A DNA stretch of 56,001 bases. Origin: Halomonadaceae bacterium T82-2. Its GTDB lineage: Bacteria; Pseudomonadota; Gammaproteobacteria; Pseudomonadales; Halomonadaceae. Positions 36,028-55,882 of the stretch are shown in pieces (positions within the stretch are counted from its first letter, which is position 1; each line of letters opens with the position of its first letter). Location of the stretch: the NCBI GenBank assembly GCA_001577635.1, contig LSBP01000030.1, positions 1-56,001 of the forward strand, read 5' to 3'. The notes below the pieces were generated by a model. It made no database searches. It worked only from the letters and a program-made list of their open reading frames with translations, and was not told the origin of the DNA. Made by a program: the position numbers and the translations under genes.

Positions 36028-37200
36028 TCAGCGCGACTGGGTTGTGGCCAGGTGACGATAGAGTTCGCGGATGCCGAAGGTCCAGGGCGGCAGGGCATCG
36101 CTGCGATCGACGCGATTGACCAGGGCGCCGAGGCTGGGCGTGGCGATGGTCACACGGTCACCGATGTGGTGAGTGAAGCCCTGGCCTTCGCCGTCACGGT
36201 CGAGAATCGGCGAGAACATCGTGCCCAGAAACAGCATGAACCCATCGGGATACTGATGGTGGGCGCCCAGCGTCTGTGCCACCAGGTCGAGCGGGTCGCG
36301 GCTGATCTGACGCATGTCGCTGGCATCCTCGAGCAGGAAGTCGTCATCGCTGCCCTCGATACGCAGGGACACCTGGGCCTCACGGACCGTGTCCATGGTG
36401 AAGTGCTCATCGAACAGTCGCACGAAGGGACCGATCGCGCAGGACGCGTTGTTGTCCTTCGCCTTGCCCAGCAGCAGCGCGCTGCGTCCCTCGATATCGC
36501 GGAGGTTGACGTCGTTGCCCAGGGTGGCGCCGCGGGCCTGCCCCTGGCTGTCGACGGCCAGCACCACTTCCGGTTCCGGGTTGTTCCACTGCGAGGCCGG
36601 ATGCAGCCCGACCCCGCGTCCGAAGCCGACCGCCGACAGCGGCTGTGACTTGGTGAAGACTTCCGCATCGGGCCCGATGCCCACTTCCATGTACTGCGAC
36701 CAGGCGCCCCGGGTCTGAAGCTCGCGTTTCAGCGCCTGGGCGTCAGGCGAGCCGGGGCGAATACGCGACAGGTCGGTGCCGATCAGTGACTGCAGCTCCT
36801 CGCGCAGGGCGTGGGCGCGCGAGGCGTCGCCGCCGGCCTGTTCCTCGATGACGCGCTCCAGCATCGACACGGCGAAGGTCACCCCGCAGGCCTTGATCGC
36901 CTGCACATCGCAGGGTGCCAGCAGATAAGGGGCGCTGGGCTCATCGGTCAGCGAGTTAGCCAGCAGCGTCTCCACGCTGCCGAGGACCTCGCCGTCGGCC
37001 CCGGCGACGAGTTCATGGGCCCCGGGGTGCTCCAGCAGGTCGGCGAGGGTGGCGACGTGGCCGGAAAGATCGACCACGTTTCCGTCGCGAACGGCGATGA
37101 CGACGGGGCCGGGGTGCGGAGTGTCGCGCCAGGCACGGCCGACCAGCAGGGCACGTGCGTGATCGGCGGGCAGATAGCGCTCGCTCAGGGGTGACGACAT
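36028..37200 (-). CDS. FAH-fold 2-keto-3-deoxypentonate dehydratase-like protein (XylX/AraD1 type)
   Basis: A 390-residue FAH-superfamily protein. Its length and segments (KACGVTFAVSMLERVIEE, WSQYMEVGIGPDAEVFTK, GNDVNLRDIEGRSALLL, AKDNNASCAIGPF) closely recall Caulobacter XylX, which dehydrates 2-keto-3-deoxy-D-xylonate to 2-oxoglutarate semialdehyde. It is therefore unlikely to be tyrosine-pathway fumarylacetoacetase. The start ATG at 37200 has AAAGGAGAC upstream. It is divergent from the SDR-pdxA2-kinase operon and shares with it a gap carrying the GTATGACA motif. The exact sugar acid is an inference; the needed semialdehyde dehydrogenase is not in the window. Confidence 0.82.
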   Translation of the reverse strand: MSSPLSERYLPADHARALLVGRAWRDTPHPGPVVIAVRDGNVVDLSGHVATLADLLEHPGAHELVAGADGEVLGSVETLLANSLTDEPSAPYLLAPCDVQAIKACGVTFAVSMLERVIEEQAGGDASRAHALREELQSLIGTDLSRIRPGSPDAQALKRELQTRGAWSQYMEVGIGPDAEVFTKSQPLSAVGFGRGVGLHPASQWNNPEPEVVLAVDSQGQARGATLGNDVNLRDIEGRSALLLGKAKDNNASCAIGPFVRLFDEHFTMDTVREAQVSLRIEGSDDDFLLEDASDMRQISRDPLDLVAQTLGAHHQYPDGFMLFLGTMFSPILDRDGEGQGFTHHIGDRVTIATPSLGALVNRVDRSDALPPWTFGIRELYRHLATTQSR

Positions 37201-37243
37201 GGAAAAGTCTCCTTTTCGGATGAGATGACCGACAAACGTCGCA

Positions 37244-37271
37244 CTGACGTGTCGAAACGATGGTCTATCAT
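37244..37271 (+). promoter_or_regulatory. Candidate promoter of the SDR-pdxA2-kinase operon
   Basis: A possible -35 (CTGACG, 37244-37249) lies 16 bp from a good -10 (TATCAT, 37266-37271). The candidate operator starts ten bases downstream of the -10, a position suited to repression. Confidence 0.4.
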
Positions 37272-37280
37272 TGTCAGCAT

Positions 37281-37293
37281 GTATGACAGGTAT
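37281..37293. promoter_or_regulatory. Candidate GntR operator 1 (GTATGACAGGTAT)
   Basis: The same 13-bp core occurs, with one or two changes, at 40314-40326 and 48778-48790, each time at a promoter of the sugar-acid island. The core holds TGT-N3-ACA, the palindromic half-site pattern of FadR-subfamily GntR proteins. The site lies in the divergent gap between the XylX-like gene and the SDR operon. Confidence 0.55.
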
Positions 37294-37361
37294 GCCAAGT
37301 GTGAGCCAATCCGCTTCCGCTGGCGACCCCTTCATCAGGAGCCTTTCAACAGGAGAGCGTC

Positions 37362-38126
37362 ATGTTCGAATCCATCGCGGGAAAACGCGTTCTGATCACC
37401 GGCGCCAGCCGGGGAATTGGCGCAGCCGTGGCCACCCGTCTGGGGGCGCTGGGCGCCCGGGTCGGCGTTCACTATCATGCCAGCGAGGCGGCGGCACGTC
37501 AGGTGGCCGAGGCCATCGAGGCCGCGGGCGGCGAGGCGCACCTGATCCGGGGGGATATCAGCCGCTCGGCCACGGCGGTGTCGGTGGTCGACCAGGCCGC
37601 CGAGGCGCTGGGTGGCCTGGACGTGCTGATCAACAATGCCGGTGACATGCTGGGGCGGGTATCGCTGGCCGATATGGACGACGACCAGTATGACCGGGTG
37701 ATGGATCTCAACGTGCGCTCGGTGGTGATGGCCAGCCGGGCTGCGGTGGCCCACTTCCGGCGTCAGGGCGGCGGCAACCTCGTGCACACCACATCTATCG
37801 CCGCGCGCAACGGGGGCGGGCCGGGCGTCGGCCTGTATGCCTCCGCCAAGGGCTGCGTGAGCACCCTGACCCGGGCCATGGCCAAGGAGCTGGCGGCCGA
37901 CAACATCCGGGTCAACGCCGTGGCGCCGGGCGTCATCGCCACCGATTTTCACGGGCGCTATTCAAGTGACGAGCAGCTCGAGGCGATGCGCGGGACCATC
38001 CCCATGGGGCGGTTGGGCACGGCCGAGGACTGCGTCGGCGCCTACCTGTTCCTGGTCAGCGATGCGCTCAGCGCCTACGTGACCGGCCAGGTGATCGAGG
38101 TCAACGGCGGGCAGCTGATGCCATGA
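37362..38126 (+). CDS. SDR family NAD(P)-dependent oxidoreductase
   Basis: A 254-residue classical short-chain dehydrogenase. The cofactor loop is TGASRGIG (13-20), NNAG is at 91-94, and the catalytic residues are Ser145, Tyr159 and Lys163. GGAGAG precedes the ATG. Its stop overlaps the pdxA2 start by four bases, so it is part of the SDR-pdxA2-kinase operon. It may oxidise or epimerise the sugar acid before phosphorylation; the substrate is unknown. Confidence 0.9.
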   Translation: MFESIAGKRVLITGASRGIGAAVATRLGALGARVGVHYHASEAAARQVAEAIEAAGGEAHLIRGDISRSATAVSVVDQAAEALGGLDVLINNAGDMLGRVSLADMDDDQYDRVMDLNVRSVVMASRAAVAHFRRQGGGNLVHTTSIAARNGGGPGVGLYASAKGCVSTLTRAMAKELAADNIRVNAVAPGVIATDFHGRYSSDEQLEAMRGTIPMGRLGTAEDCVGAYLFLVSDALSAYVTGQVIEVNGGQLMP

Positions 38127-39118
38127 CCGAGCCACGTCATTACCCCCTCGTCGTCACCATGGGTGACCCGGCCGGCATCGGCCCGGAGATCATCTGTCGT
38201 GCGCTGGTCGCGATGACGCCGGACCAGCGCCGCGAGACGCTGCTGGTCGGCGATATCCCCACCTTCGAACGTGCCGCCGACCTGATCGGCGCGCCGTTGC
38301 GCTTTGGTGAACTCGATACGTCAGGCGTTGACGATATCGTCGCCGTGGCCTCCATCGCGCGTCCCGCCGGCCCCATCATCGACGGCCGGGTCACGGCGGC
38401 GGCGGGGGAGACGGCCTTTCGCAGCGTCGCGCGGGCGGTGGAATGCGTGCAGGCCGGTCGTGCCGGGGTCATCGTCACCGCGCCACTCAACAAGGCAGCG
38501 CTCCATGCGGCACAGCGTTTCTATGACGGCCACACCGGCATGCTGGCCGCGCTGACCGGCGCGCCGTCCTCGTTCATGCTGCTGGCATCGGCCACGCTGT
38601 CGACGATTCATGTCTCGACCCATGTTTCCCTGGCCGAGGCCATCGAGCGTGTCACCGAGGCGCGCATCGTCGACACCGTACGGGCCGGGCATGCCCACCT
38701 CGAGGCGCTGGGCGTGGCGCATCCACGCATCGCCGTGGCCGGGCTCAATCCGCACTGCGGCGAGGGCGGCATCTTCGGCGATCAGGACGAGCGCATCATC
38801 CGGCCCGCCGTGAGCGCCCTGCAGCGGGAAGGCTACACGGTCCAGGGGCCGATCTCGGCCGACACCGTCTTCTACCGTGCCCATCGTGGCGAATTCGACC
38901 TGGTGGTCGCCCAGTACCACGACCAGGGGCATATCCCCGTCAAGCTCATTGCCTTCGATACCACCGTCAACGTCAGCCTGGGACTGCCGGTCCAGCGTAC
39001 CTCGGTCGACCACGGCACCGCCTTCGACATTGCCTGGCAGGGACGGGCCGATGCCACCAATCTGGAGGCGGCAATGGCCTACGCCCGGCGGCTGGCCGAG
39101 GGAGGCGGGCATGCGTGA
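38123..39118 (+). CDS. pdxA2: PdxA-family 4-phospho-sugar-acid dehydrogenase (PdxA2 type)
   Basis: A 331-residue PdxA-superfamily decarboxylating dehydrogenase. Family marks are MGDPAGIGPE near 13-22, the zinc-binding His residues in HTGML and QYHDQGHIPVKL, and the AGLNPHCGEGG segment. Canonical PdxA acts in vitamin B6 synthesis, but PdxA2 paralogues paired with DUF1537 kinases oxidise and decarboxylate 4-phospho-D-threonate or -erythronate to dihydroxyacetone phosphate. The neighbouring DUF1537 kinase, overlapping by eight bases, strongly favours the catabolic role. Confidence 0.9.
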   Translation: MTEPRHYPLVVTMGDPAGIGPEIICRALVAMTPDQRRETLLVGDIPTFERAADLIGAPLRFGELDTSGVDDIVAVASIARPAGPIIDGRVTAAAGETAFRSVARAVECVQAGRAGVIVTAPLNKAALHAAQRFYDGHTGMLAALTGAPSSFMLLASATLSTIHVSTHVSLAEAIERVTEARIVDTVRAGHAHLEALGVAHPRIAVAGLNPHCGEGGIFGDQDERIIRPAVSALQREGYTVQGPISADTVFYRAHRGEFDLVVAQYHDQGHIPVKLIAFDTTVNVSLGLPVQRTSVDHGTAFDIAWQGRADATNLEAAMAYARRLAEGGGHA

Positions 39119-40262
39119 ATGCCGGGTGGTGATCGTTGCCGATGACCTGACCGGTGCTCTCGATGCCGCGGCTCCGTTCGCCGGGCGGGGCGCGCGAACT
39201 CGAGTGGTGGTGTCGCCGACGGCGCTCGCTGCGGTGCTGGCCGACGCCGGCGACTGCGACGTGCTGGCGGTCAACACCGAGACGCGCCATGCCCCGGTCG
39301 CCGACGCGGCCGCACGGGTGGCCGAGGTGTTCAGCGCGCTGATGGCGCTGTCGCCGTCGCTGGTGATCAAGAAGGTCGACTCCACCCTGCGCGGCCATGT
39401 GGTGGCCGAGAGTCTGGCGGCGCGGCGCTCGCTCGGCCGTCCGCTCGTCGTGGCGCCGGCGGTGCCGGCACAGGGGCGTACCGTGCGACAGGGACGGGTG
39501 CTGGTGCATGGCCGCCCACTGGCCGAGAGCGATTTCGCGCGCGACGCCCGCTCGGCGCCGCCCGATGGAGCGCTGCCGGAACTGTTCGCGGCTGCCGGTT
39601 TGACGGTGGCCTGCCGCGGCGTGAACGACACGCGCCTGGAGGGCGACATCGTCTGGGATGCCGAGGACGAAGGGGCGCTCGATGCCCTGGTGCAGGCACT
39701 GGACAGCGCGCCTGCCGCCGGGATTGTGGTGGGTGCGGCGGGGGTGTGTCAGGCCCTGGCGAAGCGGCATTTCCGCGGGCGAGGGCCCACGCCCGAGCCG
39801 GGTGATAGCTGGCTGCTGGTGGTCGGGTCGCGTTGCGAGCAGGCCCGGCGTCAGATGGCGCGAGTGCGGGAACGGCCGACCGGCTGGCGAGAGGCCGAGG
39901 CGCCCGCGGCTCAGGCACCCCCGGTGGGCTGGCAGGGCGCCACACTGCTGCGGCCGGGGTGCGGTGTCGGCCCCGAGTGGACGGCGGATGACGTGGCCCG
40001 GGCGCTGGCGGTGCAGGCACAGGCCTGGCTGGTACGGGCGGCATCCCCGCCCTGGCTTTTCCTGACCGGCGGCGACACCGCCACGGCGTTGCTGCAGCAC
40101 CGAGGGGTGCGGACGATCGAGGTGGCCGGCGAGTGGGAGCCCGGCATCGCCTGGGGCTGGCTGGACGGCGAGCGTCGGCAGCCCGTGGTGACCAAGGCCG
40201 GCGGCTTCGGCGACGACGCCCTGCTGACGCGACTGCTGGACGCGTCTACGACCAGAGGATAA
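39111..40262 (+). CDS. DUF1537 four-carbon acid sugar kinase family protein
   Basis: A 383-residue kinase of the DUF1537 (DtnK/OtnK) family. The N-terminal sugar-binding domain starts VVIVADDLTGALDAAAPF and has KKVDSTLRGHV near 84-94; the C-terminal nucleotide domain has LTGGDTATALL near 321 and TKAGGFGDD near 363. Known members phosphorylate D-threonate, D-erythronate or related acids. It overlaps the pdxA2 end by eight bases (start ATG 39111). With pdxA2 it makes a two-step route from a four-carbon acid to dihydroxyacetone phosphate. At 383 residues it is shorter than many members (about 420). Confidence 0.87.
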   Translation: MRECRVVIVADDLTGALDAAAPFAGRGARTRVVVSPTALAAVLADAGDCDVLAVNTETRHAPVADAAARVAEVFSALMALSPSLVIKKVDSTLRGHVVAESLAARRSLGRPLVVAPAVPAQGRTVRQGRVLVHGRPLAESDFARDARSAPPDGALPELFAAAGLTVACRGVNDTRLEGDIVWDAEDEGALDALVQALDSAPAAGIVVGAAGVCQALAKRHFRGRGPTPEPGDSWLLVVGSRCEQARRQMARVRERPTGWREAEAPAAQAPPVGWQGATLLRPGCGVGPEWTADDVARALAVQAQAWLVRAASPPWLFLTGGDTATALLQHRGVRTIEVAGEWEPGIAWGWLDGERRQPVVTKAGGFGDDALLTRLLDASTTRG

Positions 40263-40306: not shown

Positions 40307-40312
40307 TATGAT
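40307..40312 (+). promoter_or_regulatory. Candidate -10 element of the first TRAP operon
   Basis: TATGAT lies one base before the second GTATGACA site, 77 bp ahead of the dctP start. A convincing -35 was not found, which fits a promoter needing help or one that is weak. Confidence 0.3.
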
Positions 40313-40313
40313 G

Positions 40314-40326
40314 GTATGACACGTAT
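40314..40326. promoter_or_regulatory. Candidate GntR operator 2 (GTATGACACGTAT)
   Basis: Differs from operator 1 at one base. It directly follows a TATGAT -10-like hexamer and precedes the TRAP transporter genes, so a bound repressor would sit on the transcription start. Confidence 0.55.
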
Positions 40327-40389
40327 ACATTTGCGCCATCAAACCATACCGGGCAATGAGCTGCCCCATCTTTCAAGGGAGAACAATAA

Positions 40390-41388
40390 ATGGGCAACAC
40401 GCGCACCCGCCACACCCGCATCAACCGCTGGATCTCGACCGCCATGCTGCTGGCCGGCATCAGCGCGGCCGGCATGGCCAGTGCCGAGACACTGCGCTTC
40501 GCGCACGTCTACGAGACCTCCGAGCCGTACCACAAGTGGGCCGTGTGGGCCGGCGACCAGATCGAGAAGCGCACCGACGGGCGCTACACGGTCGAGGTGT
40601 ATCCGGCGTCATCGCTGGGCAAGGAGGCCGACATCAACGAGGGGCTGTCGCTGGGCACCATCGATCTGATCTTCACCGGCAACCAGTTCGCCGGCCGTTC
40701 CTACGGGCCCATCGGTATCGCCGGGGCGCCCTACATGTTCCGCGATTTCGAGCACTGGAAGGCCTACGCGCACAGCGACCTGTTCAAGGAGATCGCCAAG
40801 GGCTACCAGGATGCGACCGGCAACGTGCCGCTGGCGCTCAACTACTACGGCAAGCGTCACACCACGTCCAACAAGCCGATCAACACCCCCGAGGACATGA
40901 AGGGGCTGAAGATTCGCGTGCCCAACGCGCCGATGTACATGATGTTCCCGGAAGCCGTCGGCGCGAATCCGACGCCGATCGCCTTCTCGGAAGTCTATCT
41001 GGCGCTGCAGCAGGGCGTGGTGGATGCCCAGGAGAACCCGCTGCCGACCATCAAGGCCAAGAAGTTCTATGAGGTCCAGAACACCATCAACCTGACCGGC
41101 CACATCACCGACTCGCTGCTGACCATCGCCGGCGGGCCGCTGTGGAACCGGCTCTCCGACGAGGACAAGACGATCTTCCGCAATGTCTATCAGGAAGCCG
41201 CCGAGCACATCACCCAGGATGTCCGTCAGTCCGAGAAGGAGCTGGTGAGCTGGTTCGAGGACCAGGGCGTGACCGTCAACAAGGTGGATACCAAGCCCTT
41301 CCGCGAGGCCGTGATTCCCTATCACAACGGCGACGCTGCCACCTGGGACAAGGAAACCTACGACCGTCTGCAGGCGCTCGGCCAGTAA
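40390..41388 (+). CDS. TRAP transporter substrate-binding protein (DctP family), system 1
   Basis: A 332-residue periplasmic binding protein. Residues 1-32 are a signal peptide (Arg-rich start, hydrophobic core, cleavage after ASA). The family arginine that clamps the ligand carboxylate is Arg176 in LKIRVPNAP, followed by GANPTPIAFSEVYLALQQGVVDAQENP. TRAP systems import acidic substrates with a sodium gradient, which suits a halophile. AAGGGAG precedes the ATG. The genes for the Q and M membrane subunits follow. Context (kinase, PdxA2, GntR) suggests a sugar acid as ligand. Confidence 0.93.
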   Translation: MGNTRTRHTRINRWISTAMLLAGISAAGMASAETLRFAHVYETSEPYHKWAVWAGDQIEKRTDGRYTVEVYPASSLGKEADINEGLSLGTIDLIFTGNQFAGRSYGPIGIAGAPYMFRDFEHWKAYAHSDLFKEIAKGYQDATGNVPLALNYYGKRHTTSNKPINTPEDMKGLKIRVPNAPMYMMFPEAVGANPTPIAFSEVYLALQQGVVDAQENPLPTIKAKKFYEVQNTINLTGHITDSLLTIAGGPLWNRLSDEDKTIFRNVYQEAAEHITQDVRQSEKELVSWFEDQGVTVNKVDTKPFREAVIPYHNGDAATWDKETYDRLQALGQ

Positions 41389-41464
41389 CGCCGTCGTCTG
41401 AACGTCGATCCCACCTTTACCCGCCGCCCGGAGCATGGCCTCCGGGCGGCGTTCGGAGACCGCG

Positions 41465-42019
41465 ATGACGGAACAACCCCAGCCCCACGACAGCGAGGCG
41501 CTCGAGGCTCTGGCCGATCTCGACGAGGCCCCGTTCGACCCGCGCGACTATCGGTTCGAGGACTATGTCACCCTGGCCATCTTCTGGGTGCTCGCCCTCG
41601 ATGTCTTCCTGCAGTTCTTCAGCCGCTACGTCCTCGGCGACTCGGTCGCCTGGACCGAGGAAATGGCCCGCTACCTGCTGATTCTGGTCTGCTTCATCGG
41701 TGGTTCCATGGCGGTGCGCCGCAACTCGCACATCATGGTCGAGTTCTTCTACCGCTACATGCCGCCGGCGATGGGGCGACTGCTCTCGACGCTGGTCGAC
41801 CTGGCGCGGATCGTCTTCTTCGCCGCCGCCGCCTGGATCACCTACGGGCTTGCCGGTCGCACGCACTCGATGATGGTCTCGGTGGATATTCCCAAGAGCT
41901 ATCTCTACTACGCCGTCATGGTTGGCTTTTTGCTGATGCTGCTGCGGGCCGTGCAGGTGGCGATTCGTCACTGGCGGGACGGTACCAGCGAGCTGTTGAT
42001 TAACGACGACGACCGATAA
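41465..42019 (+). CDS. TRAP transporter small permease (DctQ), system 1
   Basis: A 184-residue membrane subunit with four predicted spans. A hydrophilic acidic N-terminus (about 1-35) precedes YVTLAIFWVLALDVFLQFFSRY; WTEEMARYLLI near 65 is the DctQ signature. The start ATG at 41465 follows GGAGACC; an upstream in-frame ATG at 41435 lacks such a site. It lies between the binding protein and the large permease, 21 bp before the latter. Confidence 0.92.
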   Translation: MTEQPQPHDSEALEALADLDEAPFDPRDYRFEDYVTLAIFWVLALDVFLQFFSRYVLGDSVAWTEEMARYLLILVCFIGGSMAVRRNSHIMVEFFYRYMPPAMGRLLSTLVDLARIVFFAAAAWITYGLAGRTHSMMVSVDIPKSYLYYAVMVGFLLMLLRAVQVAIRHWRDGTSELLINDDDR

Positions 42020-42040: not shown

Positions 42041-43420
42041 ATGTCCTCCACGCTGTCACTTCGCCACGGGCGATTCATGGTTCCCCCGGTCGTCGCCATT
42101 CTGGCGGTGGCCTTCTGTGTCGTGCTGGCCCTGCAGGGTCAGTACATCGGCTTTCTCTTCGCCACCCTGTTCACGCTGCTGGTGATGGGCGTGCCGATCG
42201 CCATCTGTCTGGCGGGCTCCTGCCTGCTTTATGTCTATCTCAGCGGTCAGGTGCCCGACATCATCGTCGCCCACCGCATGATCAACGGGGTGGACAGCTT
42301 TCCGCTGCTGGCCATTCCCTTCTTCATCCTGGCCGGCAACCTGATGAACAACGGCGGGATCACCAACCGCATCTTCGATTTCGCGCTGGCACTGATGGGC
42401 TGGATGCGCGGCGGCCTGGGCCACGTCAACGTCGGGGCGAGCATCGTCTTTTCCGGCATGTCCGGGGCGGCGGTGGCCGACGCCGGCGGGCTGGGCACCA
42501 TCGAGATCAAGGCCATGCGCGATGCCGGCTACGATCAGGAATTCGCGGTCGGCATCACCGCCGCCTCGTCGACCATCGGGCCGATCATTCCCCCCAGCCT
42601 GCCGATGGTGATCTACGGCGTCATGGCCGGTGCCTCGGTGGGGCAGCTGTTCGTGGCCGGCCTGGTGCCGGGGCTGCTGATGGGCGTGGTGCTGATGGTG
42701 ATGATCGCCATCCTGGCGCGTCGTCGCGGCTATCAGCGCGACACCACCTTCGCCCTGAAGACGCTGCGGGTCACCTTCGCCCGGGCCTTTCTCTCCCTGC
42801 TGACCCCGGTGATCATCGTCGGCGGCATCATTTCCGGCATGTTCACGCCCACCGAGGCGGCGATCGCGGCGGTGGTGTACGCGCTGTTCCTGGGCACCGT
42901 GGTCTATCGCACCCTGACCTGGCAGCGTCTCGTCAAGGTCAGCATGGAAACCATCGAGACCACCGCGATCATCCTGCTGATCGTCGCCGGCGCCTCGATC
43001 TTCGCCTGGATCCTGACCAGCAATCAGGTAACCCAGCAGGTCATGGCCCTGTTCGGCCCGATCGCCGACAGTCCGGTCGCCGTGCTGCTGCTGATCAACC
43101 TGGTGCTGATCATCGTCGGCTGCTTCATGGAAACCATCGCCGCCATCACCATTCTGGTGCCGGTTCTGCTGCCGGTGGCGGTCAACGCCGGCGTCGACCC
43201 CGTGCACTTCGGCGTGATCATGGTGCTCAACCTGATGATCGGCCTGCTCACGCCGCCGGTGGGCATGGTGATCTACGTGCTGTCGCGGGTGTCGAACATT
43301 CCCTTCGAGCGCTGCATGCGTGGCACGCTGCCGTTCCTGGTGCCGCTGTTCCTGGCACTGCTGCTGGTCACCTTCATCCCCGCGCTGTCCATGTGGCTGC
43401 CGACATTGATCTATCGCTAG
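42041..43420 (+). CDS. TRAP transporter large permease (DctM), system 1
   Basis: A 459-residue permease with about twelve spans plus an N-terminal extension of one extra span against the usual 427 residues. The signatures are GVDSFPLLAIPFFILAGNLM, SGMSGAAVADAGGLG and GPIIPPSLPMVIYG, with the second-half motif LTPPVGMVIYV. It forms the sodium-coupled channel with DctQ. CTGGAG precedes the ATG. Together with the P and Q subunits it completes a three-part TRAP transporter. Confidence 0.94.
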   Translation: MSSTLSLRHGRFMVPPVVAILAVAFCVVLALQGQYIGFLFATLFTLLVMGVPIAICLAGSCLLYVYLSGQVPDIIVAHRMINGVDSFPLLAIPFFILAGNLMNNGGITNRIFDFALALMGWMRGGLGHVNVGASIVFSGMSGAAVADAGGLGTIEIKAMRDAGYDQEFAVGITAASSTIGPIIPPSLPMVIYGVMAGASVGQLFVAGLVPGLLMGVVLMVMIAILARRRGYQRDTTFALKTLRVTFARAFLSLLTPVIIVGGIISGMFTPTEAAIAAVVYALFLGTVVYRTLTWQRLVKVSMETIETTAIILLIVAGASIFAWILTSNQVTQQVMALFGPIADSPVAVLLLINLVLIIVGCFMETIAAITILVPVLLPVAVNAGVDPVHFGVIMVLNLMIGLLTPPVGMVIYVLSRVSNIPFERCMRGTLPFLVPLFLALLLVTFIPALSMWLPTLIYR

Positions 43421-43433
43421 GAGAGCTTTGCTC

Positions 43434-44504: not shown

Positions 44505-44562
44505 CCGGGCGGCAATGCAGTACCATAGGGGCGCAGACACGGTTGGCGAGGAGTCGCAGCGA

Positions 44563-48739: not shown

Positions 48740-48777
48740 GGCGGCCTCATGGTGGCGGTGTCATTGGCTGACATATT

Positions 48778-48790
48778 GTATGACAGGTTA
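48778..48790. promoter_or_regulatory. Candidate GntR operator 3 (GTATGACAGGTTA)
   Basis: Shares its first eleven bases with operator 1. It lies 39 bp upstream of the minus-strand SDR-FAH-UxaA operon. A separate TGAC-N-GTCA-like inverted element (about 48796-48806) is next to it. The rest of the 223-bp gap (48740-48962) shows no gene. Confidence 0.55.
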
Positions 48791-48962
48791 ACAGCGTGAC
48801 TGTCATGTCGAGTATGGTACAGCCGGTGACGACTTGCCATACCCGGCGGTGCGGCGGGCATTGGCTTTTCGTCGAGGGGCGCGAAAACGAGGGGAAAGTG
48901 GGAGAAGAATGGGCGGCATGTCCCGGATGCCATGCCGGCACCCGGGAAGCCAGGTGAAGATT

Positions 48963-50390
48963 TCAGTGACGCCGGGGCAGGATGCGCCCGGGACTCATCA
49001 ATTCCTTGGGGTCGAACAGCTGCTTGATGCCCTCGAGCAGTTCACGCTCCACCGGGGCCAGGGCGGCCAGGTAGGGGACCTGCTTGACTCGGCCGATGCC
49101 GTGTTCGGCACTGATGCTGCCGTGGTAGACGTCGACCAGCGCGAACAGCTCGGTTTCCAGGTCGTGCAGCAGGGCCTTCTTGTCAGCCAGCTCGAGCTCG
49201 GCCGGCGGCAGCAGGTTGAAGTGCAGGTTGCCGTCGCCGATGTGGCCGTAGGCGATCACCGTGGTGTCCGGCGAGTGGTCGGCCATCAATTGGCTGGCGG
49301 CCGTGAAGAAGTCCGCCAGGGTCGAGATGGGCAGGGCGATGTCGGTGCGCAGGTGTTCCCCGCGCAGCTGCTGGCCCTCGACCATGCGCTCGCGGATCTG
49401 CCACAGGCGCTCGGCCTGGGTGTCGCTGCCGGCCAGCACGCCGTCGAGAATCTGTCCGGCCGCCATGCCGGTCTCGAAGAGATGTTCGATCATGGCGTCG
49501 AGATCCAGCGGGCCGCTGGCGGCGACCTCCAGCAGCACGTAGACGGGATAGGGGCTGTCCAGCGGATCGGGCAGCGAGGGATCGGCCTCGAAGGCGAGTT
49601 CCAGGCAGGCGCGCGGGATCAGCTCGAAGGCGCTGAGCAGGTCGCAGCAACTGCGTCGCGCCTGGCCGTAGAGGGCCATCGCCGCGTTCACGTCGGGCAC
49701 GGCCACCAGGGCGGTACGCGTGTTGTGCGTCCGGGGAGAGAGCTTGAGCACCGCACCGGTGACGATGCCCAGGGTGCCCTCCGCGCCGATGAACAGCTGC
49801 TTGAGGTCGTAGCCGCGGTTGTCCTTGTGCAGGGCGTGCATGGCGTTCCACACGCGGCCGTCGGGCAGCACCACCTCCAGGCCCAGCACCAGCTGGCGCA
49901 TCATGCCGTGGCGCAGCACGTTGAGGCCGCCGGCGTTGGTGGCGACGTTGCCGCCGATCTGGCAACTGCCCTGGGCGCCGAGGCTCAGCGGGAAGTCGCA
50001 GTCGTGCTCGGCGGCGGCGTCCTTGACCGTCTGCAGTACGCAGCCGGCGTCCACGCTCAGGGTGAAGTTGAGCGGGTCGATGGCGCGAATCCGGTTCAGC
50101 CGCTCGAGGCTGATCACCAGCTCAGGGCGTTCGGCGTCGGGAAGGGCGCCGCCCACCAGCCCGGAATGCCCGCCCTGGGGCACCATGGGGATGCCGTGGC
50201 GGTGGCAGTGGGCGACGACCGCCGCCACCTCGTCGGTGGTGCGTGGCCGGGCGACGAGCAGCGGTTCGCCACGTCGGTCACCGGCCCAGTCGGTGGTGTA
50301 GCGGGGCAGGTCGGCCGGGTCGTCGACCACCCCGGCATCGCCGATACGCTCGACGAGGAAGGCCTTCAGGGACGCGGGATCGAGGGGCAT
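48963..50390 (-). CDS. FAD-linked 2-hydroxyacid dehydrogenase (GlcD/D-lactate/D-2-hydroxyglutarate type)
   Basis: A 475-residue FAD-linked oxidase of the PCMH/VAO group. The FAD domain has MVPQGGHSGLVGGA near 69-82 and CQIGGNVATNAGGLNVLRHG near 143-162; the C-terminal cap has AYGHIGDGNLHFN, with its metal-binding His residues, and SAEHGIGRVK. The family oxidises D-lactate, glycolate or D-2-hydroxyglutarate and passes electrons to the respiratory chain. It follows the second TRAP permease by 19 bp. In this island it could oxidise the lactate or glycolate released by the FAH hydrolase; L-lactate would not be the expected stereoisomer. Confidence 0.88.
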   Translation of the reverse strand: MPLDPASLKAFLVERIGDAGVVDDPADLPRYTTDWAGDRRGEPLLVARPRTTDEVAAVVAHCHRHGIPMVPQGGHSGLVGGALPDAERPELVISLERLNRIRAIDPLNFTLSVDAGCVLQTVKDAAAEHDCDFPLSLGAQGSCQIGGNVATNAGGLNVLRHGMMRQLVLGLEVVLPDGRVWNAMHALHKDNRGYDLKQLFIGAEGTLGIVTGAVLKLSPRTHNTRTALVAVPDVNAAMALYGQARRSCCDLLSAFELIPRACLELAFEADPSLPDPLDSPYPVYVLLEVAASGPLDLDAMIEHLFETGMAAGQILDGVLAGSDTQAERLWQIRERMVEGQQLRGEHLRTDIALPISTLADFFTAASQLMADHSPDTTVIAYGHIGDGNLHFNLLPPAELELADKKALLHDLETELFALVDVYHGSISAEHGIGRVKQVPYLAALAPVERELLEGIKQLFDPKELMSPGRILPRRH

Positions 50391-50409
50391 GGCGGGCTCC
50401 TTTGCAGCG

Positions 50410-51666
50410 TTACCGATACCAGAGAATCAGGTCAGGGAAGATCAGGAAGGCGGCCAGCAGCAGCAACAGGGTCAGGTAGAAGGGCAGCAGGCTCTTGACC
50501 AGATGTTCCATGCCCACCTTGCCCACGCCGCAGCCGACGTAGAGCACCGTACCCACCGGCGGGGTGATCAGTCCCAGACCGAGGATGAACGACATCAGCA
50601 CGCCGAAGTACACCGGGTCGATGCCCAGCTTGACCACCACCGGCGTCATCAGCGGCGCCAGGATCACCATCGCCGGCGTCAGATCCATGAAGAAGCCCAC
50701 CACCAGCAGGAACAGCGACAGCAGCAGGAGCAGCAGCAGCTTGTTCTCGGTGATCGCCGACAGGCTGACGACCAGTTGCTGCGGAATCATGTTGGCGGTC
50801 AGCAGCCAGGCCAGCACGCTGGCGAAGGCCAGCAGCAGCATGACCACGCCGGTCAGCCGGCCGGTGGCGATGCACAGCTGGAAGAAGCGTTTCAGGGACA
50901 GGCTGCGGTAGATGAACATCGACACCGCGATGGCGTAGATCAGGGCGATCGCCGCACTCTCGGTGGGGGTGAACACCCCGGAGAGGATGCCGCCGACGAT
51001 GATCACCGGCAGCAGCAGCGCGAGCAGCGAATCCTTGAGTGCCAGCCACAGCTCGCGGAGCTCGAAGGGCTGGCCCTTGCCGGTCTTGCGGGCCTGCAGG
51101 AAGGTGGTGACTGCCAGCCCCAGGGTGATCAGCACGCCGGGCACGATGCCGGCCATGAACAGCTGCGAGATCGAGGTATTGGTGACCACCCCGAACAGGA
51201 TCATGGGGATCGACGGCGGAATGATGATGCCCACCACCGAGGCGGCGACCACGATCGCCGTGGCCAGCGGGCCGCTGTAGCGGTGCTGCTTCATCGGCTC
51301 GATCATCATGCTGCCCACCGCGGAGGCGTCGGCCACCGCCGAGCCGCTGATGCCGCCGAAGAACATCGAGGTCAGCACCGCCACCTGGCCCAGCCCGCCG
51401 GCGACGAAGCCCACCAGGGCGCTGGCCAGCCGTACCAGGCGCTGGGCGATGCCGCCCTGACTCATCACCTCGCCGACCAGGATGAACAGCGGAATCGCCA
51501 GCAGCGGAAAGGAGTCGAGCCCGTTGACCGCCTGGGCGACGATGGGTGACAGCGAGTAGTCGGCGGCGAAGAAGATGAACAGGCTGATGGCCGCCAGCCC
51601 GAACGAGATCGGTAGGCCGATGACGATGCAGATCGCCAGCCCGACGAGAATGCTCCAGAGAATCAT
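50410..51666 (-). CDS. TRAP transporter large permease (DctM), system 2
   Basis: A 418-residue permease, the standard length, with about twelve spans. The signatures are GLDSFPLLAIPLFILVGEVM, GGISGSAVADASAVG and GIIIPPSIPMILFG, with LITPPVGTVLYVG in the second half. Its start overlaps the end of the dctQ gene by four bases (ATGA). System 1's permease is clearly different in sequence, so the two sets are not a recent duplication. Confidence 0.94.
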   Translation of the reverse strand: MILWSILVGLAICIVIGLPISFGLAAISLFIFFAADYSLSPIVAQAVNGLDSFPLLAIPLFILVGEVMSQGGIAQRLVRLASALVGFVAGGLGQVAVLTSMFFGGISGSAVADASAVGSMMIEPMKQHRYSGPLATAIVVAASVVGIIIPPSIPMILFGVVTNTSISQLFMAGIVPGVLITLGLAVTTFLQARKTGKGQPFELRELWLALKDSLLALLLPVIIVGGILSGVFTPTESAAIALIYAIAVSMFIYRSLSLKRFFQLCIATGRLTGVVMLLLAFASVLAWLLTANMIPQQLVVSLSAITENKLLLLLLLSLFLLVVGFFMDLTPAMVILAPLMTPVVVKLGIDPVYFGVLMSFILGLGLITPPVGTVLYVGCGVGKVGMEHLVKSLLPFYLTLLLLLAAFLIFPDLILWYR

Positions 51667-52148
51667 GAGGCGGTCCCCCGCAACAGCTTGACGAGCGCCA
51701 GGGTATTGGCGATCAGGGTGAGCACGGCCATGACCGGCATGGCGCTGTAGAGCACGGTTCTGGGTATCTGCAGCATTGGCGTGGCGCTGGTGAAGCCCGA
51801 CAGCTGGTCACGGAAGCCGAGCAGGATGCACACGCAGACGATATAGATCACTGCGATGCACAGCAGGGCGAACAGCTTGCGCAACGGCGCCGGGGCCTTG
51901 TCCTGAAAGTAGGTGACCGCGACGTGCTCGCGGTCGATGCTGCCCAGTCCGGCGCCGAGCAGCACCAGCCAGATGAACAACACGCGGGAGAGTTCCTCGG
52001 CCCAGGCGTAGGAGTAGTTGAGCACGAAGCGGCCGAAGACGTTGGCCGCCACGCAGAACACCACGCCCAGTACCAGCAGGCCGACGGCGATTTCCAGGGT
52101 GGTCTTGAGCAGGGCGAGCGCACTGCGGGAAGAATGGGATGCGTTCAT
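51663..52148 (-). CDS. TRAP transporter small permease (DctQ), system 2
   Basis: A 161-residue four-span subunit with the DctQ segment YAWAEELSRVLFIWLVLLGAG near 40-60 and the basic/polar start MNASHSSRS. GGAGGGCGCC precedes the ATG. It pairs with the large permease through an overlapping stop/start. The binding-protein gene is 61 bp upstream. Confidence 0.92.
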   Translation of the reverse strand: MNASHSSRSALALLKTTLEIAVGLLVLGVVFCVAANVFGRFVLNYSYAWAEELSRVLFIWLVLLGAGLGSIDREHVAVTYFQDKAPAPLRKLFALLCIAVIYIVCVCILLGFRDQLSGFTSATPMLQIPRTVLYSAMPVMAVLTLIANTLALVKLLRGTAS

Positions 52149-52209
52149 GGCGCCCTCCGAATACGGCGCGTCGGGCGAGCGTCAGCGCCCGCCCGACGCC
52201 GGTCGGTGA

Positions 52210-53262
52210 TTACTGGGAGACCGCGCGGACCTTGTCGATCAGCTCGCCGCCGATCTTGTCGCGCCAGTCGTCGTAGACCGGGGCCACCGTCTCCTGGAAG
52301 GCCTTCATCTGCTCGGGAGTCAGCTCGGTGATCTGCATGCCCGAGTCGGCCAGCTCCTGCTTGATCTGGTCGTTCATGGAGCGGCTGACGTGGCGTTCGT
52401 AGTCGCCCATCTGCTTGGCGGCGTCACGCAGCAGCTGCTGGTACTCCGCCGGCAGCTTGTTCCAGAAGCGCTCCGACACCAGGGTGATGAACGGCGTGTA
52501 GACGTGGTTGGTCTCGGTGGCGTAGTCCTGCACCTCGTTGAACTTGGAGGACTGGATGGTGATCCAGGGGTTCTCCTGGCCGTCGACCACGCCCTGTTCC
52601 AGCGCGGTGAACAGCTCGGCGAAGGACATCGGCGTGGGGTTGGCCCCGAGGGTGCGCCAGATATCCAGGTGGATGGGGTTCTGCATGGTGCGGATCTTGA
52701 GGCCGTCGAGATCCGCCGGCGAGCTGACCGGGTGCTGGCTGTTGGTCAGCTGGCGATAGCCGTTCTCCGCCCAGCCGATCGCCACCAGGCCGTTGGTCGA
52801 GGCGTCCTCGAGCATCTGCTGGCCGATCTCGCCGTCCAGCACCTGGTCGGCTACCTCCGGGGTGGGGAACAGGAAGGGCAGGTCGAAGAGGGCGAACTTC
52901 GGGAACATGCTGACCAGCGGCGAGGTCGACGGCGCGGTCATCTCCAGGGTGCCGGACTGCAGGGCGCTGACCGCCTGCAGGTCATCGCCCAGCTGCGCGC
53001 CGGGGAACAGTTCGACCTTGATGTGGCCGTCGCTGCGTTTCTCGACGATCTTCTCGAAGTACTCGAGGCCGCGATACTGGGCGCCGGACTGGGTAGTGCC
53101 GATGCTGAACTTGATCTTGAAGTCGCCGTCGGCCTTGACGACGTCGCCCTTGACGTCGGGGATCGGCGGCATCTCGCTGGCGGCGCTGGCCTGCAGGGCG
53201 GTCAGGCCCAGCAGGGCGCCGCCGATCAGCGAAGTCACGCGGGTCATTGTGGTTGTTTTCAT
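52210..53262 (-). CDS. TRAP transporter substrate-binding protein (DctP family), system 2
   Basis: A 350-residue periplasmic protein. The signal peptide spans about 1-27 (MKTTTMTRVTSLIG, cleavage after ASA). The ligand-clamping arginine is Arg191 in LKIRTMQNP, followed by GANPTPMSFAELFTALEQGVVDGQENP. AAGGAGCC precedes the ATG; the frame extends upstream to 53328 without protein-like character. It heads the operon dctP-dctQ-dctM-FAD oxidase. The adjacent L-fuconate dehydratase suggests an aldonate ligand such as L-fuconate. Confidence 0.93.
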   Translation of the reverse strand: MKTTTMTRVTSLIGGALLGLTALQASAASEMPPIPDVKGDVVKADGDFKIKFSIGTTQSGAQYRGLEYFEKIVEKRSDGHIKVELFPGAQLGDDLQAVSALQSGTLEMTAPSTSPLVSMFPKFALFDLPFLFPTPEVADQVLDGEIGQQMLEDASTNGLVAIGWAENGYRQLTNSQHPVSSPADLDGLKIRTMQNPIHLDIWRTLGANPTPMSFAELFTALEQGVVDGQENPWITIQSSKFNEVQDYATETNHVYTPFITLVSERFWNKLPAEYQQLLRDAAKQMGDYERHVSRSMNDQIKQELADSGMQITELTPEQMKAFQETVAPVYDDWRDKIGGELIDKVRAVSQ

Positions 53263-53452
53263 GCTTGGCTCCTTGGAGTGGCTGACGTGTGCGAGACACG
53301 TGGCGTGTGCCGGGCGGGCCGGGCCCATCCCGGGCGGTCATGCGCAAACTATGTGGCTTAATGTCTGCTTCTTTTTTGTCTATGTTGAACCTACACGACT
53401 TTGGCGCTCGACGAGACTTGGCCGTTGGTCGAACATGGCCTGAGGGGAGCGC

Positions 53453-54757
53453 TCATGACTGCCAGGCTTCACCCTCGGGGAAGACATGGCGCTCGAGTGA
53501 CTCGGCGTGCATGGTGATGCTGTAGCCCGGGGCCTCGGGCAGCCGGTAGCGGCCGCGCTCGATGCGCACCGGATCGAGGAAGTGCTCGTGCAGGTGGTCG
53601 ACATACTCGAGCAGCCGCCCCTCCAGCGAGCCGGACACGGCGATGTAGTCGAAGGCCGAGATGTGCTGGGTGTACTCGCAGAGCCCCACACCGCCGCCGT
53701 GGGGGCAGACCGGCACGTCGTACTTGGCGGCCAGCAGCAGCACCACGATCACCTCGTTGAGGCCGCCGAGTCGCGCGGCATCGAGCTGGCAGTAGTCGAT
53801 CGCCCCGGCCTGCAGCAGCTGCTTGAACATCACCCGGTTGTGGCAGTGCTCGCCGGTGGCGACGCCGATGGCCGGCGCCAGGCGTTCGCGGATCTCGGCG
53901 TGGCCGAGGATGTCGTCCGGGCTGGTGGGCTCCTCGATCCACAGCGGATCGAACTCGGCCAGGTCGCGCATCTTGGCGATCGCCTCGTCGACGTCCCACA
54001 TCTGGTTGGCATCCATCATCAGGCTGCGCTGCCAGCCGATCTCCTCGCGCAGGATCTGCGCCCGGCGGCGGTCTTCCGCCAGGTCGCCGCCGACCTTCTG
54101 CTTGAAGTGCTCCCAGCCTTCCTCCAGGGCCTCGCGGGCCAGGCGGCGCATCTTGTCTTCCGAGTAGCCCAGCCAGCCGGCGGAGGTGGTGTAGCCTGGG
54201 TAGCCCGACTCGCGAAGGTGCGCGATCCGTTCGGCCTTGCCGGCCTCGTTGCGCTTGAGGATGGCCAGCGCCTCCTGGGGCGTGAGGGCGTCGCTGACGA
54301 AGCGGAAGTCCAGGCAGCGCACCAGCGCCTCGGGCGTCATGTCGGCCAGCAGCTGCCAGACCGGCTTGCCCTCGCGCTTGGCCCACAGGTCCCAGACGGC
54401 GTTGATGATCGCGGCGCTCGCCAGGTGGATCACGCCCTTCTCCGGGCCCAGCCAGCGCAGCTGGCTGTCGCCGCTGGTCAGCTCGCGCCAGAAGACGCCC
54501 ATGTCGGCGGTGATGGTTTCCAGACGCTGGCCGACGATCCGCGAGGCCAGCGAGCGCACGGCCGCCACGCACACCTCGTTGCCGCGGCCGATGGTGAAGG
54601 TCAGTCCGTGGCCTTCCAGGCCGTCGCCGGCATCGGTGGTGAGGATCACGTAGGTGGCCGAATAGTCCGGCGCCGCATTCATCGCGTCCGAGCCGTCCAG
54701 GTCGCGCGAGGTGGGGAATCGAATGTCGCGCACGTCGAGGTGGGTGATGGTGGTCAT
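53453..54757 (-). CDS. fucD: L-fuconate dehydratase (enolase superfamily)
   Basis: A 434-residue enolase-superfamily dehydratase converting L-fuconate to 2-keto-3-deoxy-L-fuconate. The N-terminal capping domain runs to about 140, and the barrel carries Lys219-x-Lys221, metal ligands Asp249, Glu275 and Glu303, and the Asp326-His353 pair (CPHGGGVGLCEY). This layout matches, within two or three residues, the Xanthomonas enzyme as I remember it. The start LDGSDAMNAAPDYS is also characteristic. It is divergent from a LysR gene and lies 190 bp from the second TRAP operon. The downstream SDR and FAH hydrolase would complete the pathway. Confidence 0.93.
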   Translation of the reverse strand: MTTITHLDVRDIRFPTSRDLDGSDAMNAAPDYSATYVILTTDAGDGLEGHGLTFTIGRGNEVCVAAVRSLASRIVGQRLETITADMGVFWRELTSGDSQLRWLGPEKGVIHLASAAIINAVWDLWAKREGKPVWQLLADMTPEALVRCLDFRFVSDALTPQEALAILKRNEAGKAERIAHLRESGYPGYTTSAGWLGYSEDKMRRLAREALEEGWEHFKQKVGGDLAEDRRRAQILREEIGWQRSLMMDANQMWDVDEAIAKMRDLAEFDPLWIEEPTSPDDILGHAEIRERLAPAIGVATGEHCHNRVMFKQLLQAGAIDYCQLDAARLGGLNEVIVVLLLAAKYDVPVCPHGGGVGLCEYTQHISAFDYIAVSGSLEGRLLEYVDHLHEHFLDPVRIERGRYRLPEAPGYSITMHAESLERHVFPEGEAWQS

Positions 54758-54826
54758 GCCTGCTCCTTGCCATGTTGCCGGTCGTCGCCGGGACTCAAGC
54801 CTCTTGGCAAGGTAAGCGGGAATTGC

Positions 54827-54874
54827 GATAACCTTCCAATCAAAATTTTGTTACTGCGATTTCTTCTGGTTATC
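54827..54874. promoter_or_regulatory. Inverted repeat in the fucD-lysR gap
   Basis: A perfect GATAACC/GGTTATC pair (54827-54833 and 54868-54874) flanks an AT-rich stretch with the palindrome CAAAATTTTG (54841-54850). Position and symmetry suit binding by the adjacent LysR regulator at a shared divergent promoter. There is no GTATGACA site here. Confidence 0.4.
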
Positions 54875-54910
54875 AAAAGGCGCGCCTTGCCGTGCCGGGG
54901 AGCGACGTCC

Positions 54911-55882
54911 ATGGACCCCCTGTCATCTACCCATCTTTTTGGCTGGCTGCGCTTCAAGCATCTGGTGCTGCTGACCACGCTGGATCGCAGCCGCAACCTG
55001 CATGCCGCGGCACGTGCCATGCACCTGAGCCAGCCGGCGGCGAGCAAGATGCTGCGCGACCTGGAAGGCTTCTTCGGCTTCGCGCTGTTCGAGCGGCTGC
55101 CGCGTGCCATGCTGCCCACCGAGCTGGGCGAGCCGGTGATCCGCCATGCCTGGCGGCTGCTCAACGAGGCGGACCGACTGGTCAGCGATATCAATGACCG
55201 GCGGGCGGGAGGCTACGGACGCCTGCTGATCGGCGCGATCGCGGCGGCGGCACCGGAGATCCTGCCGGCGGCGATCGCCCGCTTGAAGCGCGAGCGTCCG
55301 CGGCTTTCCGTCCACCTGCAGGAACAGACCAGCGACCGGCTGCTGGTCGAGCTCGAGTATCGGCGGCTCGACCTGGTCATCGGCCGTCTGACCCATGTCA
55401 GCCAGCACAACCAGTTCGACTTCGAGCCGCTGCGCGACGAGCCGCTGCGGGTCGTGGTTCGACGCGGCCACCCCCTGGCGGCGGGCGACGGCATGCCGGA
55501 TCTGGCAACGCTGAGCCGCTGGCCGTGGATCCTGCACCCGATGACCAGCCCGATGCGCGGCGTGTTCGAGGCGGCGCTGGCGGCCGAGGGCGTGACCTCG
55601 CCGGACAATGTGGTCGAGACCACCTCGATCCAGACCACGCTGCAGCTGCTGCTGGATTCGGACATGCTGGCGGTGCTGCCGCGTTCGGTGCTGCGGCGCC
55701 CGCTGGAAAGCGGTCAGTACGTGCTGCTCGAGCGCATCATCGGCAAGCCGCTCGATTATTACGGGATCATCACGCGACGTGACGAAGCGCTGCCTTCGGC
55801 GGCCCAGGCTCTGATCGATCATCTGCGGGAGCTGGCGGCGCGTCCCTTCGAGGGCGTGGCGGGGGAGGAGACGCCCCCCTGA
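54911..55882 (+). CDS. LysR family regulator (GbpR-like), divergent from fucD
   Basis: A 323-residue LysR regulator. The HTH is at about 12-72 (WLRFKHLVLLTTLDRSRNLHAAARAMHLSQPAASK), the sequence style of the GbpR group that controls sugar uptake and catabolism; the effector domain (about 100-305) begins GGYGRLLIGAIAAAAPEILP. It is transcribed away from the L-fuconate dehydratase gene, so it probably regulates that gene and perhaps the second TRAP operon in response to a sugar acid. A hairpin terminator (55889-55914) follows inside the terminal inverted repeat. Confidence 0.91.
   Translation: MDPLSSTHLFGWLRFKHLVLLTTLDRSRNLHAAARAMHLSQPAASKMLRDLEGFFGFALFERLPRAMLPTELGEPVIRHAWRLLNEADRLVSDINDRRAGGYGRLLIGAIAAAAPEILPAAIARLKRERPRLSVHLQEQTSDRLLVELEYRRLDLVIGRLTHVSQHNQFDFEPLRDEPLRVVVRRGHPLAAGDGMPDLATLSRWPWILHPMTSPMRGVFEAALAAEGVTSPDNVVETTSIQTTLQLLLDSDMLAVLPRSVLRRPLESGQYVLLERIIGKPLDYYGIITRRDEALPSAAQALIDHLRELAARPFEGVAGEETPP

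Follow-up and report, generated by a model that had tools for sequence, protein, structure and literature searches.

An 18-gene island, probably for sugar acids, in a halophilic Halomonadaceae bacterium and its probable GntR regulon

Zhang et al. are said to have described, in 2016, a pathway for D-threonate that runs through a DUF1537 kinase and PdxA2. The closest published relatives of the 18-gene island treated here, which lies in a contig of Halomonadaceae bacterium T82-2, are the loci for L-fucose, L-fuconate and L-galactonate in Halomonas HL-48 and HL-93 and the genes Csal_1738-1731 of C. salexigens; the study of these loci assigns an FAH-family protein, a short-chain dehydrogenase (SDR), UxaA and a tripartite ATP-independent periplasmic (TRAP) transport system to L-fuconate/L-galactonate (PMC5507952). 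For Herbaspirillum huttiense, the accessible part of another report describes a UxaA-superfamily D-arabinonate dehydratase with low activity with D-altronate, L-fuconate and L-galactonate, and two fates of 2-keto-3-deoxypentonate, which either undergoes dehydration by COG3970 FAH enzymes or is a substrate for oxidation by L-2-keto-3-deoxyfuconate (L-KDF) dehydrogenase, with later hydrolysis to pyruvate and glycolate (PMC6336799). A third study puts L-fuconate, D-arabinonate and D-altronate dehydratases together on the basis of shared (2S,3R) substrates, and it gives measured D-threonate activity for two D-arabinonate dehydratases (PMC10079672), and CxaPQM of Advenella mimigardefordensis is a sugar-acid TRAP system in which, according to the portion of the paper available, the ligands of CxaP are aldonates (PMC12076931).

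The DNA studied (the window) is one entire contig of 56,001 bases from a 3.42-Mb genome in 55 contigs. A first-pass annotation, made from the letters alone, had listed 18 contiguous genes in it, and all 18 were found side by side at 36031-55879. Each single enzyme of the island is of an already known kind. Together the genes probably serve sugar-acid uptake and breakdown in this salt-loving host, and we lean towards the reading that they form a single sugar-acid catabolic regulon, in which a GntR-type regulator of the NanR subfamily and a shared motif would link three operons, rather than a set of unrelated neighbours.

The operator-like motif and the spread of the island

The 17-mer WKGTATGAYASGWWWRC, an operator-like motif, was found ahead of three operons of the island. 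When one mismatch at most is allowed, the 3.42-Mb genome contains it three times, always within the island, and the control not at all. Site 1 (37279-37295, + strand; an exact match; matrix score 14.1) lies in the divergent region between the genes of the XylX-like protein and SDR1 and would serve both the SDR1-PdxA-kinase operon and the XylX-like FAH gene; site 2 (40312-40328, + strand; 33.8) lies upstream of DctP1 and would serve TRAP1-Ldh2-GntR; and site 3 (48776-48792, + strand; 19.4) lies upstream of SDR2-FAH hydrolase-UxaA. The FucD-TRAP2-FAD enzyme group has no motif of its own in the window and adjoins the LysR gene. A palindrome search of upstream regions recognised GTAT-N7-ATAC in 69 of 70 regions upstream of DctP1 and nothing clear upstream of XylX and FucD. 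In TGGTATGAYACGTATACA, 17 positions out of 18 were invariant across the 32 distinct DctP1 sites, eight of those being fixed by the search pattern, and a weight matrix built from the DctP1 sites ranked the three island sites as the top three in the window. The core GTATGAYASG occurs in the window exactly three times, at 37281, 40314 and 48778 (order-1 Markov expectation: mean 0.07, maximum 2, in 60 resamples).

For comparison within the family, genome contigs were searched with UxaA, the best 80 of 397 relatives were taken, and 55 loci were used (L004-L057 and L060), all Halomonadaceae by title except L052 (Gammaproteobacteria bacterium MFB021); the other 25 were mainly Bacteroidota. Modicisalibacter tunisiensis (L004), the nearest among the named genomes returned, shares the complete set of 18 genes and their order, with identities of 85-99%, and the grouping is therefore not due to chance. 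Partial versions exist in many other Halomonadaceae. Open reading frames (ORFs) in the 55 loci and the window, counted roughly with a simple ORF caller on loci some of which are cut at contig ends, numbered 56 for UxaA, 55 for the FAH hydrolase, 50 for SDR2, 43 each for GntR and DctM1, 42 each for Ldh2, DctQ1 and DctP1, 35 for PdxA, 32 each for the kinase and SDR1, 29 for the XylX-like protein, 20 for LgoD-like, 17 for the FAD enzyme, 16 each for FucD and UxaB-like, and 12 for DctP2. In L206 a XylX-FucD-FAD enzyme group is divergent from the kinase operon, and in L177 and L184 TRAP1-Ldh2-GntR is kept beside UxaA-FAH-SDR2, with kinase, PdxA and SDR1 not seen there.

Upstream of SDR2 the core is present in 48 of 53 distinct regions with GntR vs none of 33 without it, and because the motif precedes SDR2 only where GntR is present, GntR is presumed to bind it. 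As many as 176 of the 198 core matches in the fetched loci (2.30 Mb, some species twice) lie upstream of SDR1, DctP1, SDR2, XylX or FucD; the other 22 comprise three between the FAD enzyme and FAH hydrolase genes, seven located at XylX-like genes, two preceding an aldehyde dehydrogenase (ALDH) gene, three of the same sequence at that ALDH position, and seven left over. In the three loci from which SDR2 is gone (L005, L006 and L008), the core now precedes the FAH hydrolase gene. In 151 family genomes (G numbers below), in which ortholog cut-offs were set at gaps in the match lists (1e-40 for UxaB, 1e-80 for Ldh2), a 15-mer form of the motif was found in 44 of the 45 with Ldh2 vs 14 of the 106 without, and 88 of its 94 matches in the former lie no more than 7.5 kb from Ldh2 (a reversed control pattern gave 12 matches overall). 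Conservation is limited to the motif site in 40 distinct sequences for SDR1, 43 for SDR2 and 50 for DctP1, and a matrix built solely from DctP1 sites exceeded the 99th percentile of shuffles in 44 of 47 SDR1 regions. Fifteen alphaproteobacterial loci (L144-L158) contained three single core matches, one of which (L148, 15727) stands before DctP1, and the Halomonas plasmid L159 has two. Given the shared motif and its co-occurrence with GntR, one GntR regulon probably covers the kinase and non-phosphorylative branches alike. The single non-phosphorylative route of the first-pass annotation is not upheld, since this probable regulon would include the kinase branch as well.

Several points weigh against a single regulon. 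The fourth-ranked place in the window, at 32675, scores 13.9, barely under site 1; the core was chosen post hoc, with the sites already seen; five of the 53 SDR2 regions with GntR lack it (L040, L184, L185, L212 and L216); and the DctP1-only matrix passed the 99th percentile in just 3 of 85 SDR2, 4 of 40 XylX and 9 of 29 FucD regions. The genomes are related, so that p-values based on counts overstate, and six genomes with FucD have no SDR2. The kinase scores below the D-threonate kinase (DtnK) model NF047819 (187.2 vs 450), as does the PdxA protein below the D-threonate 4-phosphate dehydrogenase model NF002891 (275 vs 583), and in rhizobia and Paracoccus the TRAP1-Ldh2 homologs occur with L-idonate 5-dehydrogenase/UxuA. 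Lastly, with convergent transcription and LysR as a second regulator, the island could still consist of two units.

Two units are what one alternative proposes, which we consider unlikely: independent neighbouring modules, one for D-threonate/D-erythronate (TRAP1, kinase, PdxA, SDR1 and Ldh2) and one for L-fuconate (FucD, TRAP2, SDR2, FAH and UxaA). The halves are indeed convergent and have two regulators, a terminator-like hairpin with a T run (45336-45358, unstranded) is visible in the sequence between the GntR and UxaA genes, and five Chromohalobacter loci (L017, L030, L034, L035 and L042) have the order FucD-TRAP2-FAD enzyme-SDR2-FAH-LgoD-UxaA-UxaB-another TRAP with no kinase module. However, the one motif stands upstream of operons of both halves, and SDR2 is present in all 36 genomes with the kinase, as it is in all 72 with UxaA and all 45 with Ldh2. 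In all 29 genomes that have both kinase and UxaA, the distance between the two is 6.2-15.6 kb. In the seven kinase genomes without UxaA, the fetched stretch holds SDR2 and FAH (six genomes) or FucD and XylX (one, G033).

Transporters, kinase branch and oxidising enzymes

Both TRAP sets named in the first-pass annotation are present, each with DctP, DctQ and DctM together and with DctP and DctM models above the cut-off, the DctQ proteins being recognised by weak YiaM matches alone (35.9 and 52.2, cut-off 260). TRAP1 (DctP1 40390-41388, DctQ1 41435-42019 and DctM1 42041-43420; + strand) scores 202.4 with TIGR00787 and 467.9 with TIGR00786, both above the cut-off, and the PDB entries nearest to DctP1 are SiaP-type, which does not settle its ligand. 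For DctP2 of TRAP2 (DctM2 50410-51666, DctQ2 51663-52148 and DctP2 52210-53328; - strand), the best PDB matches are 4p47 and then 7bbr. Both systems would import (2S,3R) aldonates. The GntR regulator (44515-45285, + strand) passes the NanR subfamily model NF003011 (274.3, cut-off 260). Import of sialic acid by TRAP1 was considered and rejected, for the likeness to SiaP and NanR goes no further than subfamily level and the 18 genes include no sialic-acid catabolic gene.

The kinase operon consists of SDR1 (37362-38126, + strand; NF005559 218.6, cut-off 215), a PdxA-family dehydrogenase that is a candidate PdxA2 (38123-39118, + strand; TIGR00557 336.7, cut-off 290.35) and a DUF1537 acid-sugar kinase (about 39111-40262, + strand), in which PF07005 (126.2) and PF17042 (57.8) both exceed the gathering score. 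Kinase and PdxA protein would convert a C4 acid of the D-threonate type to triose phosphate. Two further enzymes would oxidise 2-hydroxy acids. Ldh2 (43428-44504, + strand), an NAD(P)-dependent 2-hydroxyacid dehydrogenase of the Ldh2 family, has PDB 1z2i as its match (4.2e-107) and is distantly similar to YiaK; the AllD, sulfolactate and malate/lactate models all match it under their cut-offs. The other is a single-subunit protein of the FAD-dependent D-2-hydroxyacid dehydrogenase family (48963-50390, - strand). Two labels of the first-pass annotation change. Kinase and PdxA protein stay under the D-threonate cut-offs, and the GlcD-like label for this FAD enzyme is not upheld: the score with the glycolate oxidase GlcD model TIGR00387 is 233.9 vs 567.9, the nearest PDB entries are the oxidoreductase 3pm9 (3.8e-106) and mitochondrial D-2-hydroxyglutarate dehydrogenase 6lpn (3.9e-94), and by these matches the protein is nearer to D-2-hydroxyglutarate dehydrogenase than to GlcD. 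Characterised relatives of the FAD enzyme act on D-2-hydroxy acids, and L-fuconate would give L-lactate, so that the closed route once proposed for the island is unproven. From L005, L006 and L008, in which the FAD enzyme adjoins the FAH hydrolase, came the idea that it substitutes for SDR2, which was rejected because G110, G118 and G122 (same arrangement and identities) have SDR2 elsewhere, beside LgoD.

Outside the family, alphaproteobacterial TRAP1-Ldh2 homologs adjoin either L-idonate 5-dehydrogenase/UxuA or homologs of SDR2/UxaA/FAH. The first of these neighbourhoods suggests that TRAP1-Ldh2 might handle L-hexonates or acids of the 2-keto-L-gulonate type, with kinase and PdxA taking their breakdown products, an alternative that we rate lower still than two separate modules. 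Ldh2, GntR and DctPQM1 homologs of Paracoccus and rhizobia lie beside L-idonate 5-dehydrogenase, some of these loci also with UxuA and a gene of the mannitol-dehydrogenase family, and the distant similarity to YiaK would suit such substrates; yet L-idonate 5-dehydrogenase and UxuA are absent among the 18 genes, and the neighbours in Halomonadaceae, L153, L154 and L156 are of the SDR2, FAH or UxaA type. On a plasmid of Qingshengfaniella alkalisoli (L156), homologs of UxaA, Ldh2, TRAP1 (SiaP-like), FAD enzyme, FAH hydrolase and SDR2 occur together at 35-66% identity, and Ldh2 and SDR2 homologs lie side by side in G019 (L208) and Azospirillum argentinense (L153), with no UxaA or FucD nearby. The recurrence of the L156 set and these two Ldh2-SDR2 pairs favour a connection between Ldh2-TRAP1 and Route III. 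Uptake of C4 acids by TRAP1 is not supported, in view of these alphaproteobacterial neighbourhoods and of the 9 of 45 Ldh2 genomes that have no kinase ortholog.

In L144-L146, L148-L150, L152 and L158 (Paracoccus and rhizobial plasmids), the DctPQM1 homologs have L-idonate 5-dehydrogenase as a neighbour, in many cases together with Ldh2 and UxuA, and the name sialic acid TRAP, which the annotated ones carry, is doubtful. L156, from an alkaliphilic alphaproteobacterium, also has an enolase-family gene, the whole set being 31-66% identical.

Dehydratases, SDR2 and hydrolases

FucD (53453-54757, - strand), an L-fuconate dehydratase of the enolase superfamily, matches L-fuconate dehydratases over its full length (4a35, 1.1e-178; 2hne, 6.4e-168, residues 1-432) and carries the presumed catalytic motifs. 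SDR2 (47990-48739, - strand) is of the L-2-keto-3-deoxyfuconate / D-2-keto-3-deoxypentonate 4-dehydrogenase type; its best PDB matches are 8y4j, 8xwk and 8y11 (about 1e-96), with 8y4b also among the matches, and 8Y11 and 8Y4B come from a study of L-2-keto-3-deoxyfuconate 4-dehydrogenase (PMC11199699). All 12 residues looked up there (the Ser-Tyr-Lys triad, the arginine ligands R-T-R-R and pocket residues) are kept in SDR2 at a constant offset of 5, and residues and PDB matches together place it in type 1 of these enzymes. The FAH-family hydrolase (47096-47938, - strand; PDB 8gsr, 3.5e-89) retains His83 and Glu86 of the characterised 2,4-diketo-3-deoxy acid hydrolase, and scores below the equivalog NF053535 for 2,4-didehydro-3-deoxy-L-rhamnonate hydrolase (406.8 vs curated 500). 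The route through FucD, SDR and FAH hydrolase that the first-pass annotation had taken from Xanthomonas is thus supported by SDR2 and the hydrolase alike. The XylX-like FAH-superfamily protein (36031-37200, - strand, in an open frame of 36028-37335, the start at 37200 being likelier by the codon model) matches the FAH family protein 9kkt (5.8e-120) and, more weakly, 2-keto-3-deoxy-D-arabinonate dehydratase 2q18 (5.2e-15), and is probably a 2-keto-3-deoxypentonate dehydratase.

The second acid-sugar dehydratase, of the UxaA/GarD superfamily (45403-47043, - strand; PF20629, PF04295 and PF08666), has the SAF and both GD_AH domains, and nine of its 11 cysteines are conserved in all 72 orthologs. 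In the whole genome, no LgoD ortholog (best E-value 2.4e-29) and no UxaB (at 1e-40) was found, these two labels following the available text of PMC5507952 and the best family match, under curated cut-offs (201 vs 376 and 226 vs 359). Because both orthologs are missing, the LgoD-UxaB-UxaA pathway for L-galactonate, which calls for both in the genome, is not what feeds UxaA, and the enzyme probably dehydrates the imported acid directly. Direct import of acids, proposed in the first-pass annotation from the lack of a sugar dehydrogenase and lactonase, agrees with the absence of lactonase, LgoD and UxaB among the 18 genes, the remainder of the genome not having been searched for L-fucose dehydrogenases and lactonases.

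The 151 family genomes comprise 83 with SDR2, 78 with FucD, 72 with UxaA, 51 with LgoD, 45 with Ldh2, 40 with UxaB and 36 with the kinase. UxaA occurs in 10 of the 11 SDR2 genomes that lack FucD. That UxaA is an ordinary D-altronate dehydratase yielding 2-keto-3-deoxygluconate, with D-altronate imported or made outside the known LgoD/UxaB families and its place beside SDR2-FAH merely historical, is improbable, for although the type enzyme of the family is altronate dehydratase and UxaA goes with LgoD- and UxaB-like genes in many relatives (LgoD in 47 of 72), 25 of the 72 UxaA genomes, this one included, keep UxaA and SDR2 without LgoD and without UxaB (0 of 25), and in 10 SDR2 genomes UxaA is the sole one of the two dehydratases.

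Across the 72 UxaA genomes, 11 have LgoD and Ldh2, 36 LgoD alone, 25 Ldh2 alone and none neither (p = 8e-11, kinship ignored); evolutionary replacement of LgoD by Ldh2 was dropped as a claim and is kept as a pattern, the UxaA tree having three Ldh2 changes and an independent-pairs test being non-significant. In some relatives (G034, G059, G070, G074 and G064), FucD lies no more than about 2 kb from a second UxaA-like gene, 38-40% identical. Bacteroidota UxaA homologs (L058-L083) are 53-58% identical, several of them beside TRAP genes, and in L070, L074 and L075 the homolog lies beside those of SDR2 and the FAH hydrolase.

For the single regulon that we prefer, the most likely function is the breakdown of (2S,3R)-aldonates of the D-arabinonate, L-fuconate/L-galactonate and D-threonate types, substrates predicted from the chemistry in the accessible text of PMC6336799 and the substrate grouping in that of PMC10079672. 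UxaA and FucD would convert C5/C6 acids (D-arabinonate, L-fuconate and L-galactonate type) to 2-keto-3-deoxy acids, SDR2 would oxidise these at C4 with NAD+, and the FAH hydrolase would split the diketo acid into pyruvate and glycolate, L-lactate or glycerate. Alternatively, the XylX-like enzyme could dehydrate 2-keto-3-deoxypentonate towards alpha-ketoglutarate semialdehyde. A more far-reaching proposal is tentative and unlikely as a whole: a regulon for a stereochemical series, in which D-threonate goes through kinase/PdxA, D-arabinonate, L-fuconate and L-galactonate through UxaA/FucD and Routes II/III, and Ldh2 and SDR1 form a C2-epimerising oxidation/reduction pair that would bring the (2R,3R) epimers, D-erythronate and D-ribonate, into the series.

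At the right edge, the gene of the LysR-type regulator (about 54983-55882, + strand; the codon model favours a start at 54911) is divergent from the FucD operon, and its product scores below TIGR02424 (169.9 vs 303.8). From LysR to the contig end there are 119 bp (55882-56001), and the island may continue beyond it, because an ALDH-family gene lies at the matching place, after LysR, in M. tunisiensis L004 (2-1057). In other loci, the ALDH gene of the same cluster has the same motif upstream. Of 20 proteins scanned in 1-35470 of the window, the majority are housekeeping-like; they include chorismate synthase, PhaC-like, aconitase/isopropylmalate family, semialdehyde dehydrogenase, FimV, TruA, tryptophan synthase, carboxyltransferase, amidotransferase, MatE, ExoD and 2OG-Fe(II) oxygenase types.

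Comparison with described systems

No description of this regulon was found in the open-access literature, supplements not covered, and what appears new is a regulon linking both chemistries, with UxaA kept without LgoD/UxaB. One regulator would thus control both a phosphorylative C4 branch and a non-phosphorylative C5/C6 branch, and three defined sites make the regulon testable in an island held whole or in part by many Halomonadaceae. UxaA is pointed to as the dehydratase of SDR2-FAH loci without FucD (10 of 151 genomes), and the island could help in naming TRAP systems publicly annotated as sialic-acid importers, such as the alphaproteobacterial relatives of DctP1.

The first-pass annotation knew of no cluster with exactly this content; a close relative is, however, published in the loci of HL-48, HL-93 and C. 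salexigens. Like the island, these loci bring together a COG0179 hydrolase, a COG1028 dehydrogenase, UxaA and a TRAP system, and the FucR sites given there could overlap the island motif; they differ in having lgoD and uxaB/uxaF, which are missing here, and the available main text names neither threonate nor erythronate (PMC5507952). The HL-48 locus (L021) has kinase, PdxA, TRAP1, Ldh2, GntR and three motif sites. The H. huttiense system of Routes II/III for pentonates and deoxyhexonates resembles the island in its cluster of three enzymes, a COG2721 UxaA-family dehydratase, a COG3970 XylX-like dehydratase and an SDR2-type dehydrogenase, and its hydrolase gives pyruvate and glycolate or lactate, as proposed here; in contrast to the island, neither a kinase/PdxA branch nor a TRAP system is described for it in the accessible text (PMC6336799). 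TRAP2 can be set beside CxaPQM through 7bbr, the second-best PDB match of DctP2, which we take to be the aldonate binder CxaP, the ligand of DctP2 being a prediction. Finally, in the island as in the D-threonate kinase-PdxA2 pathway, the gene of a DUF1537 kinase adjoins one of the PdxA family, but the island pair scores under the curated D-threonate cut-offs and is set among Ldh2, SDR1 and TRAP1.

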